Assembly: GCA_947500385.1 (NCBI GenBank)
Contig: CANMSA010000017.1
Location: forward strand, 1 to 64,000
Reading direction: 5' to 3'
Length of the DNA stretch: 64,000 nt
Source of the DNA: an uncultured Flavobacteriaceae bacterium
GTDB lineage: Bacteria > Bacteroidota > Bacteroidia > Flavobacteriales > Flavobacteriaceae
The notes beneath the pieces were generated by a model, which worked only from the letters and a program-made list of their open reading frames with translations, made no database searches and was not told the origin of the DNA. Made by a program: the position numbers and the translations under genes. This document shows positions 28,776 through 31,438 of this stretch, piece after piece (within the stretch, counting starts at the first letter, position 1; each line of letters opens with the position of its first letter).

Positions 28776-30839
28776 ATCGAATTCTTTTCTTAGTACATCG
28801 ATGGCGGGGTTCTTTTCCCGTAGCTTTTCGTATTTTTCTTCAGGTGTAAAAGCGAATTTTTTAGCAGTTTCTTCGTTTACGGTTATCTTAAGTTCTATAA
28901 ACCGATTGTTTAAATTGGACCGCAAATGTTCCATAAGGTCAAACTGCTCCCGCTCTACCTCTTTCTTCATGGTACCATTTGGTAGTTCGATCCAAATAAC
29001 GTGGTCTTTCAGTAATTTTGGAACATCGGTGGCAAGGTTCGAAGCCAATATCTTTTGTCCTTTGGCATCGATGGTTTGTACGAATGCATCCCAATGTTTT
29101 TGCATCGCTTCCTCGGTAAAAGGCTCCTTCGGCAAATTTGCCTGATCTATAACATCATCTTTTTTCTGAAGTAGATGTTCTTTTTTCGTCTTGAGACTGG
29201 AAATGGAGAGGCCAGATACCCTTTTTGAGGGCATTTTTAATGCTATTTTTTTCTCTGCTACCGCTAATTGACTATCTGGCTCATGCGTTTCTAAGGTGGA
29301 AGGTAGAGGTGCTTGTTTTGCATTCGTCTCTGGCTGCAGCGGTTGCTGTACAACCGGTTGTTCTATTATACCGGCTTCAGTGTCGACCATCCCAGAGGAT
29401 TTGGTTTCCATGTTTGGGGAGATGGTTGTTTCTTGGGAGGGCGCTATGGGCCCTGGCTGCGTTTGTTCCATAACCGGCGACGTAGCGGGCTCCGTAACAA
29501 CCGCATGTTCCATTGAATGTTCCTGAGGCACACATGGAGTTTCTGACGGTGTTGTCCCTTCACCCTCTAAGGGCTCAGTAGTAGAGGCCGTAACGACTTG
29601 CTCGGAGGTTATTGGTATTTTGGTTTCGCCGGGGAGGGTGCTGATGCTGGGCGTGGCAGCGGATTGTGAGGCTTCAAGAACACTGGGTAAAACACCTTTT
29701 TTATCCTTGTAGAAGGCCGCAGGTGCGATAAAATCGACCGTTTTATTGGCGAGCGCTATCGATTCAGGATTTTTTTTTTCTCCCTCGAAATCAAGAGAGG
29801 CCAATTTCATCAGTGTGAGTTCTACAAGCAATCGTTGGTTCTTACTTGTTTTATATTTCAAGTCACAGTCGTTGGCCATGTCCAAGGCGCGTAACAAAAA
29901 AGAGCTACTGGTTTTCTGTGATTGTTCTAGATACCGTTGTTTAGCGGTGTCACCTACTTCCAATAGGCTAATTGTGCCTTGATGCTGACACACCATTAAA
30001 TCCCTAAAATGGGAGCCGAGACCGCTTATAAAATGATGACCGTCAAACCCAAGCGACAGCGTTTTATTTAAAAGTAACAGAAGGGAAGGGATATCGTGGG
30101 ATAGGATAAGGTCCGTAGCAGCAAAGTAGGTATCGTAATCCAACACGTTTAAATTCTCGGTAACCGCCTTTCTGGTAAGTTGTTTTCCAGAAAAGCTAAC
30201 GACCCTGTCAAAAATGGAGAGGGCATCACGCATGGCACCGTCTGCTTTTTGGGCGATAATGTGCAAAGCATCGTCCTCGGCTTGTATGCCTTGATTTTCA
30301 GCGATATACTTTAAATAGTTTGCGGCATCCTTCACGGTAATACGCTTGAAGTCAAAAATTTGACAACGAGACAGGATAGTAGGTATAATTTTGTGTTTCT
30401 CGGTAGTTGCCAAAATAAAGATGGCATGCTTGGGCGGCTCTTCCAAGGTCTTCAAGAAGGCATTGAAGGCCGATTGCGAAAGCATATGCACCTCGTCAAT
30501 AATATACACTTTGTATTTCCCTACTTGGGGCGGTATGCGTACTTGGTCAATAAGATTGCGAATATCATCTACCGAGTTGTTCGAGGCCGCATCAAGTTCA
30601 AAAATATTGAAGGCGAAATCCTCGTCGGGCCTTTGGGAGCCGTCTTCGTTTATTTTTTTGGCCAGAATTCTGGCACAGGTGGTTTTACCGACCCCTCTTG
30701 GCCCACAAAATAAAAGCGCTTGCGCAAGGTGATTATGGGCGATGGCGTTGGTTAGCGTATTGGTGATCGCTTCTTGCCCCACGACATCCTTAAAGGTCTG
30801 AGGTCTGTACTTACGTGCCGATACGATAAATGGTTCCAA
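28764..30839 (-). CDS. dnaX: DNA polymerase III subunits gamma and tau
   Basis: 691 residues. DnaX is the AAA+ clamp-loader ATPase. Domain I-II marks are YRPQTFKDVVGQ, Walker A GPRGVGKTT, and IIDEVHMLS; domain III ends near residue 350 (RLLVELTLMKLASL). The rest is a Pro/Glu/Thr-rich linker and a tau-like C-terminal domain. At codons 354-357 the coding strand has ten consecutive A; a slip adding one A stops after residue 358, and one losing an A stops after residue 360. Either gives a gamma-like product. AGGGAG lies directly upstream of the run. Confidence 0.96.
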   Translation of the reverse strand: MEPFIVSARKYRPQTFKDVVGQEAITNTLTNAIAHNHLAQALLFCGPRGVGKTTCARILAKKINEDGSQRPDEDFAFNIFELDAASNNSVDDIRNLIDQVRIPPQVGKYKVYIIDEVHMLSQSAFNAFLKTLEEPPKHAIFILATTEKHKIIPTILSRCQIFDFKRITVKDAANYLKYIAENQGIQAEDDALHIIAQKADGAMRDALSIFDRVVSFSGKQLTRKAVTENLNVLDYDTYFAATDLILSHDIPSLLLLLNKTLSLGFDGHHFISGLGSHFRDLMVCQHQGTISLLEVGDTAKQRYLEQSQKTSSSFLLRALDMANDCDLKYKTSKNQRLLVELTLMKLASLDFEGEKKNPESIALANKTVDFIAPAAFYKDKKGVLPSVLEASQSAATPSISTLPGETKIPITSEQVVTASTTEPLEGEGTTPSETPCVPQEHSMEHAVVTEPATSPVMEQTQPGPIAPSQETTISPNMETKSSGMVDTEAGIIEQPVVQQPLQPETNAKQAPLPSTLETHEPDSQLAVAEKKIALKMPSKRVSGLSISSLKTKKEHLLQKKDDVIDQANLPKEPFTEEAMQKHWDAFVQTIDAKGQKILASNLATDVPKLLKDHVIWIELPNGTMKKEVEREQFDLMEHLRSNLNNRFIELKITVNEETAKKFAFTPEEKYEKLREKNPAIDVLRKEFDLDL
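29770..29779 (-). promoter_or_regulatory. A10 slippage run within dnaX
   Basis: The coding (minus) strand reads GAA AAA AAA AAT in frame, ten A in a row, directly after the last helix of domain III. A ribosomal -1 slip or insertion of one A gives AAA TCC TGA; loss of one A gives ATC CTG AAT CGA TAG. AGGGAG at 29780-29785 precedes the run, as an SD-like element does in E. coli dnaX, although closer here. Confidence 0.6.
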
Positions 30840-30960: not shown

Positions 30961-31290
30961 CAAGCAGGCTACCTTATCGCTCTGGCGATTACTTTCAGAG
31001 AGGAAAGTCCGGACACCATAGTGCAGTATAGCGGGTAACGCCCGTCGTTCCGTTTCGATGACCATTGAAACGGAAAAGGACCAGTGCAACAGAAAGCAAG
31101 TACAGTTCGGCTGTAGTGAAACCAGGTAAACTCTATACGGTGAAACGTCACGTAAATCGGTGTTTGAGGGCTGCACGCCCGAATCGAAGGGTAGGCGGTT
31201 CGAGCCTTTGGGCGACCATTGGCCTAGATAAATGATAAGGAACCTTGATGCATTTCGAGGTGTACAGGATCCGGCTTATTGGCCTGCTTT
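30961..31290 (+). ncRNA. rnpB: RNase P RNA (catalytic subunit)
   Basis: About 330 nt. The conserved P4 5' strand GAGGAAAGTCCGGAC is at 31000-31014, and the 3' conserved region ACAGGATCCGGCTTAT lies just before the end. AAGCAGGC at 30962-30969 pairs with GCCTGCTT at 31282-31289 to form P1. Other conserved internal segments such as AACAGAAAGCAA are present. RNase P removes the 5' leader from pre-tRNA. The end of P1 runs into a T tract (31288-31294), which may act as the terminator. It is divergent from dnaX and convergent with rsmD. Exact ends are good to a few bases. Confidence 0.96.
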
Positions 31291-31438
31291 TTTTAACATC
31301 CCCAAGCGATACCCCACCGAGCGAAAATGCATGCTGTTACGTTCTGCTGTTTTTATTTAAATCGCAATAGCGGCTTGCCGTAGTTCGCAAGATTGGTACA
31401 TTCCTTCAAATACCCTTTTCGCGCACTTGAGACAATTG

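Follow-up and report, generated by a model that had tools for sequence, protein, structure and literature searches.

A conserved run of ten A in dnaX of Flavobacteriaceae and other Bacteroidota, a putative site of programmed transcriptional slippage

Introduction

Transcriptional slippage in dnaX of Thermus thermophilus was reportedly described by Larsen et al. in 2000. In this gene the slippage takes place on a run of nine A and leads to a short, gamma-like product (PMC1088944, PMC5009743). The RNA-DNA hybrid in RNA polymerase is 9-10 bp long, and on a run of nine A or T slippage by the bacterial enzyme is highly efficient in vivo (PMC5009743). In a Roseiflexus IS630 element, slippage is made possible by a stem loop immediately 5' of the motif (Penno et al. 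2015, in PMC5009743). Escherichia coli dnaX uses a -1 ribosomal frameshift at A_AAA_AAG with an upstream Shine-Dalgarno (SD) sequence and a 3' stem loop (PMC1088944, PMC3711429). Furthermore, in the GeneTack survey 12 genera contributed 17 split dnaX genes, of which 12 genes had poly-A and nine had 10 A; tau needs a -1 frame transition in these genes, and slippage was inferred for those with poly-A (Antonov et al. 2013, PMC3711429). Three Chlorobium/Chloroherpeton species are named among the carriers (PMC3711429); the nine A10 genes may include some of Bacteroidota.

Here we analyse a 64,000-nt stretch of DNA from an uncultured Flavobacteriaceae bacterium (hereafter the window), whose dnaX gene carries ten A on the coding strand directly after domain III. 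This run most probably serves as a programmed transcriptional slippage site giving both tau and a short gamma-like product. As the sources describe it for Thermus dnaX, the A-run lies on the sense strand, stops are present in both other frames and tau is read in the 0 frame; however, the Thermus run is an A9 located seven-eighths through the gene, whereas that of the window is an A10 right after domain III, about half-way. Also unlike Thermus, many Flavobacteriaceae possess a hairpin abutting the run on its 5' side, many relatives show a reversed layout, and slippage is here a prediction from sequence. The position of the hairpin is that described for Roseiflexus IS630, although that element slips on T5C5, with the deletion of one base, as against an A10 in a replication gene. 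The resemblance to the GeneTack dnaX genes, as far as these are described, lies in the poly-A (10 A in nine of them) and in tau being out of frame in split genes; beyond that set, intact and split genes appear here as one system across Bacteroidota, with interchange between the layouts, +1 splits, selection on the stops and the hairpin. The predicted outcome, a short form without the C-terminal part of tau, is that of E. coli dnaX, but instead of a single heptamer there is a run of A9-A13, with no SD at working distance, little 3' structure and both shifted frames closed. A search of the open-licence literature returned no account of a phylum-wide dnaX site, of frame interchange or of a 5' hairpin in dnaX. 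What looks new is thus the breadth, the frame interchange and the hairpin, the principle of slippage being known from Thermus and GeneTack.

Materials and methods

Searches for dnaX gave hits in 9 of 10 genomes of the genus, 148 of 149 of the family, 95 of 98 of the order and 196 of 198 of the phylum. All 148 family hits were read (30 + 118 loci), plus seven further loci from the genus. The order hits were read in part (27 new loci minus six repeating family genomes, plus 20 more), and 8 of the 40 loci in the "order" set belong to the window's own family. From the phylum search, all 28 class-level genomes and 32 of the 149 phylum-level ones, chosen to spread over families, were read. The named set consists of the best 80 loci of a longer list (79 after duplicate removal) and was found with six peptides, one of which, DFEGEKKN, biases it slightly towards the motif. 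In all, 336 loci were mapped; removal of the exact duplicates L191 and L276 reduced the number to 334.

For each locus, we scored the longest A-run in the 120 nt following the domain III anchor and took the longest open frame after the run as the tau frame. To obtain expected numbers of stops, intact (tau-in-frame) genes were recoded synonymously according to the codon usage of each gene. Changes of layout were counted on a tree that FastTree had built from N-terminal DnaX sequences. Some quantities were set aside: the numbers of AAA and AAG lysine codons within the run are circular, as the run itself defines them, the count of GAA follows from the run, and the "A>=9 observed" figure of the recoding test is conditioned on the run being present.

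Results

The dnaX gene of the window

The product of the gene matches the AAA+ clamp loader and its lid, and E. coli DnaX chains match it at E 3.2e-59, while the Pfam match to domain III (residues 222-348) is weak (24.2 bits vs a curated cut-off of 24.4). The original prediction, made from the letters of the DNA, had placed ten A at codons 354-357 with AGGGAG in front of them. Both are found as described (Table 1), with AGGGAG (29780-29785) directly abutting the run, and the codons around it read GAG GGA GAA AAA AAA AAT CCT. The ends of the short products were correctly foreseen as well: one extra A or a -1 slip leads to EKKKS-stop with 358 as the last residue, and the loss of one A leads to EKKILNR-stop with 360 as the last residue. 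As domain III extends to residue 348, a short form ending at either position would consist of the AAA+ core and domain III and little else. An uninterrupted run of about nine or more A located in dnaX after the clamp-loader core, as in the Thermus type, is therefore present.

Table 1. Features of the dnaX region in the window.
Feature	Position	Strand	Remarks
dnaX, DNA polymerase III subunits gamma/tau, 691 aa	28764..30839	-	TTG start called mechanically
RNA hairpin CUCUCUUG-AUUU-CGAGGGAG, 8 bp, 4-nt loop	29780..29799	-	directly 5' of A10; predicted fold
A10 run, putative slippage site (coding strand; T10 on +), codons 354-357	29770..29779	-	read from sequence
TGA stop, product 358 aa	29764..29766	-	reached by one extra A or -1 shift
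TAG stop, product 360 aa	29756..29758	-	reached by one A lost, two extra A or +1 shift

The window contains nine A/T runs of at least 8, and only the one in dnaX reaches 10 or more; the whole 6.03-Mb genome has 20 distinct A/T runs of this length. Other coding-strand A10 runs in open frames of at least 150 aa of this genome were found in L353, L354, L363, L366, L369 and L370 (at residues 258, 18, 16, 1, 129 and 173, respectively), which are candidates for slippage or phase variation. The gene for a class A RNase P RNA (RF00010, 182 bits; 30961-31294, + strand) lies about 120 nt from the dnaX start in divergent orientation.

Conservation of the run

A run of at least nine A (9-13 A) is located at the end of domain III in 299 of the 334 Bacteroidota loci read, that is, in 154/155 of the genus/family set, 36/40 of the order set, 69/79 of the named set (best listed loci), 26/28 of the class set and 14/32 of the phylum set. 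The run is 10 A long in 240 loci, 9 in 28, 11 in 28, 12 in one and 13 in two, whereas the longest run is 7-8 in five loci and shorter or missing in 30. The modal length of 10 equals the length of the 9-10 bp hybrid. A synonymous G in close relatives, by which the original prediction was to be judged, does not interrupt the run: all nine genus loci have A10, and the family and genus together lack a run of at least nine A at one locus only. Upstream of the site, the dnaX genes of the family/genus set are free of A-runs of nine or more (0 in 158,592 nt), and those of all sets contain five in 345,240 nt, all five in the order set; the corresponding numbers for the 600 nt downstream are 2 in 92,432 nt (family) and 10 in 198,280 nt (all sets). 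Orders differ in where the run lies and in its codon register, and a protein motif therefore does not explain it.

The 35 loci without such a run comprise L152 in the family, four in the order set, ten in the named set (including the Bacteroides-like L223, L245 and L248), two in the class set and 18 among the 32 phylum-level loci. In L152 (family genome G026), a stop closes the frame immediately behind domain III, and only the short form would be produced from the gene in its assembled state. In the named set, the A-run is missing from several Bacteroides-like and other Bacteroidales dnaX genes (L223, L226, L245, L248, L256); the second product may have been lost there or may be made otherwise.

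Stop codons in the shifted frames

Both non-tau frames stop within six codons in 255 and within ten codons in 282 of the 299 run-bearing loci. In all nine genus loci, the -1 frame is closed 2 codons on and the +1 frame 4-6 codons on. Synonymous recoding of the intact family genes would give both stops within six codons in 18.4 of 132 genes, whereas 121 have them; for the intact genes of the other sets, 15.9 of 90 were expected and 70 observed. Taken separately, a stop within six codons is present in the -1 frame in 131/132 intact family genes (60.8 expected) and in the +1 frame in 122/132 (41.3 expected). As all three stop codons are in use at these positions, the stop itself is kept rather than a fixed sequence. 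Near stops under selection in both non-zero frames, as for a Thermus-type site, are thus found here, and the proposal that a short product is selected for in this lineage is supported by this excess together with the retention of the run.

Intact and split genes

The tau part is in frame in 222 of the 299 run-bearing loci, in the -1 frame in 67 and in the +1 frame in ten. Therefore, 77 genes are split at the run and can give full-length protein only through a slip. A length of exactly 10 A is seen in 183/222 loci with tau in frame, in 53/67 with tau in -1 and in 4/10 with tau in +1. The downstream part matches the profile of intact tau C-termini in all but four split loci (L128, L264, L285, L339); in L128 and L264 the tau part is 12 and 65 aa long, respectively, apparently because the contig ends there. 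Among the ten +1 splits, some of which could be homopolymer sequencing errors, L143, L167, L176 and L211 keep A10, and the -1-frame stop is far off in L285 and L286 (20 and 28 codons). In the latter two loci, from 0.6-Mb genomes of the same order, A11 is followed by TGA and the long frame lies in +1. Slippage rescue has been described for insect endosymbionts, and by analogy the layout of L285 and L286 could represent such a rescue.

Whole groups are split, namely genus g111 (9/9 sampled, open frames of 363-412 codons), the neighbouring family f4 (15/15 sampled, 361-374 codons) and the named Flavobacterium loci read (5/5, L198-L202), and this uniformity speaks against an accident of assembly. 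The layout changed at least 40 times on the tree of 299 loci and at least 37 times if six doubtful loci were dropped (293 loci); with branches under 70, 80 or 90 support collapsed, 33, 31 and 26 changes remained for these 293 loci. The corresponding means for shuffled labels were 64.6 (uncollapsed), 61.9, 59.3 and 46.2. The changes are thus many, yet fewer than with shuffled labels, and the layout appears partly inherited and partly fluid.

The hairpin upstream of the run

The predicted hairpin of the window, whose 3' arm is formed by AGGGAG, has a folding energy of -8.8 kcal/mol (z -2.65), and the 40-nt stretch that includes the run one of -10.3 kcal/mol (z -2.28). Compared with synonymous recoding it ranks at 14.5%, which is not significant for this gene alone. 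Over the 154 family loci, the 40 nt before the run have a folding z of -1.77 +/- 0.09, as against -0.42, -0.24 and -0.24 at three 40-nt control positions. For the 30 nt before the run, z is -2.08 +/- 0.11 in the family, -1.40 in the named set (best listed), -1.00 in the order and -0.78 in the class set, the class value being no lower than that of one control position (-0.82). A perfect helix of at least 6 bp whose end lies no more than 3 nt from the run is present in 114/154 family loci (5.9% at control positions). Measured against synonymous recoding, z is -1.62 +/- 0.09 in the family (control -0.07 +/- 0.08), -1.02 in the named set (best listed), -0.76 in the order and -0.39 in the class set. 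The phylum set is without a hairpin signal by either measure (-0.29 for the 30 nt, +0.41 against recoding). One common arm, GATGGAG, is shared by 81 of the 154 family loci, and the loci are hence not independent; the other 73 have a z of -1.02 +/- 0.13 against recoding.

Hairpins beyond the constraint of codons and protein are therefore a property of Flavobacteriaceae and not of every relative. Like the stem loop of IS630, the hairpin stands immediately 5' of the motif in the window and is in excess in the family, but not all relatives have it. Even within the genus it is patchy (stems of 8, 8, 8, 5, 4, 8, 3, 6 and 0 bp in the nine loci), and as it is also not significant in the window gene, it can be at most an enhancer.

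The evidence from covariation is mixed. Among 104 distinct family 24-mers, 71.2% of the cells are paired (permutation mean 64.6, maximum 67.3; slid pairings 35.9-57.1%), and 66 cells show double changes (permutation mean 35.4, maximum 48). As slid pairings reach 33-62 double changes, the number for the hairpin is not conspicuous, and the effect of relatedness is removed by neither control. With respect to uniformity of synonymous codons near the run, only GAT (91/96) and ATC (95/113) come up to roughly the 95th percentile among background columns, whereas those for Ala, Ser, Thr, Phe and Gly are below it.

Discussion

We propose that slippage of RNA polymerase takes place when rA:dT pairs occupy the whole of its 9-10 bp RNA-DNA hybrid, which would produce dnaX mRNAs with differing numbers of A. 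Messages with 10 (or 10 +/- 3n) A would be translated to tau (691 aa), whereas other numbers would lead to a stop within 2-4 codons and to a gamma-like product of ~358-360 aa, terminating just behind domain III and devoid of the tau-specific C-terminal part. In this species, tau would be the unslipped product; in roughly one in four of the relatives with a run that were read, it would be the short form that arises unslipped, and tau would require the slip. In Flavobacteriaceae, the hairpin of the nascent RNA abutting the run probably raises slippage. The level of slippage, as well as the presence and role of the short protein, we infer from the features described above.

Slippage of the polymerase rather than of the ribosome is favoured by the run lengths, by the occurrence of tau in either shifted frame and by the reported blindness of the ribosomes to SD sequences. 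Antonov et al. similarly took two frame directions as a sign of slippage (PMC3711429). The alternative, programmed -1 ribosomal frameshifting at A_AAA_AAA in the style of E. coli dnaX, would give the short product and, in split genes, tau; we regard it as unlikely. It would suit the preponderance of -1 among the split genes and for the -1-frame stop missing from a single intact family gene. An SD-like 4-mer abuts the run in 112/154 family loci, while about 7.7 would be expected from upstream windows. Any run of nine or more A contains A_AAA_AAA in phase, which the ribosomal shift requires, and for this reason the phase of the run relative to the codons cannot tell ribosome from polymerase. However, a ribosomal slip heptamer needs only 7 nt, and runs of 7-8 A, though sufficient for ribosomes, are nearly absent (5/334). 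The stops of the +1 frame are selected too, although a -1 shift needs none, and ten split genes have tau in +1. In E. coli dnaX the SD-like element lies ~10 nt upstream of the slippery heptamer. SD-like 4-mers at such a spacing are present here in 2/154 family, 2/36 order, 6/69 named (best listed), 4/26 class and 3/14 phylum loci, and AGGGAG, which the original prediction had likened to the E. coli element, is unlikely to act as an SD stimulator, as it abuts the run and forms the 3' arm of the hairpin. The 40 nt downstream of the run show little structure (z -0.22 +/- 0.08 in the family, -0.55 in the class set, 0.32 in the window), so that a 3' stem loop of the E. coli type is lacking and a downstream stimulator hairpin was rejected as a candidate. 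In addition, the ribosomes of Bacteroidia reportedly fail to recognise SD sequences, the reported exception being ribosomes without bS21 on a very strong SD (PMC9976891). An SD-stimulated ribosomal shift was thus rejected as the main reading because of the spacing, the poor conservation and the published sequestration of the anti-SD. The 3' end of 16S rRNA was sought in this genome, and the single match, with two mismatches, was not used as evidence.

Phase variation, in which gain or loss of A in the DNA switches tau on and off in the population, is very improbable. A10 is a hypermutable kind of tract, and the layouts do interchange between species. Nevertheless, the length is exactly 10 in 240 of 334 loci, the short open frame is found in every sampled member of g111 and f4, stops are kept in both frames, and dnaX is a core replication gene. 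Still less credence can be given to a constraint on the protein only, with the lysines needed and the A-rich codons and stops there by chance: EKKN/EKKK is common in Flavobacteriaceae and ~58 of 132 recoded genes would still have at least nine A, but this explanation is already refuted by the excess of both-frame stops and by the 77 genes split at the run, which is moreover kept in other registers and positions where the flanking protein differs. Equally hard to sustain is the notion that split genes yield two distinct polypeptides, gamma and a C-terminal piece with a start of its own, or are pseudogenes or assembly errors: some splits are single-locus, and in 23/77 the tau frame offers a possible start codon (ATG, GTG or TTG) close to the run (ATG in 7/77), but 54/77 have none between the upstream stop of that frame and a point 20 codons beyond the run, some groups are split in all members sampled, the homologous tau part is kept in 73/77 and the run is exactly 10 A in 57/77 (at least nine in all 77 by definition).

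Beyond the window, we consider it an even chance that the frame of dnaX in Bacteroidota is not fixed where domain III ends and that the polymerase sets the gamma/tau ratio across most of the phylum. Slippage at A10, boosted by the hairpin in Flavobacteriales, would then be efficient both ways, and changes of the frame by one base would be nearly neutral; selection would hold the length of the run (equal to that of the hybrid) and a stop in each non-tau frame, but not the frame. Split dnaX genes, e.g. those of Flavobacterium (L198-L202), should not be annotated as broken. If slippage takes place as proposed, the dnaX series is a natural set in which selection sees run length and stops rather than frame, and RNA polymerase slippage becomes testable in tractable laboratory species. 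A short clamp-loader subunit would be kept by selection across the phylum, which bears on the old dispute over the function of gamma.
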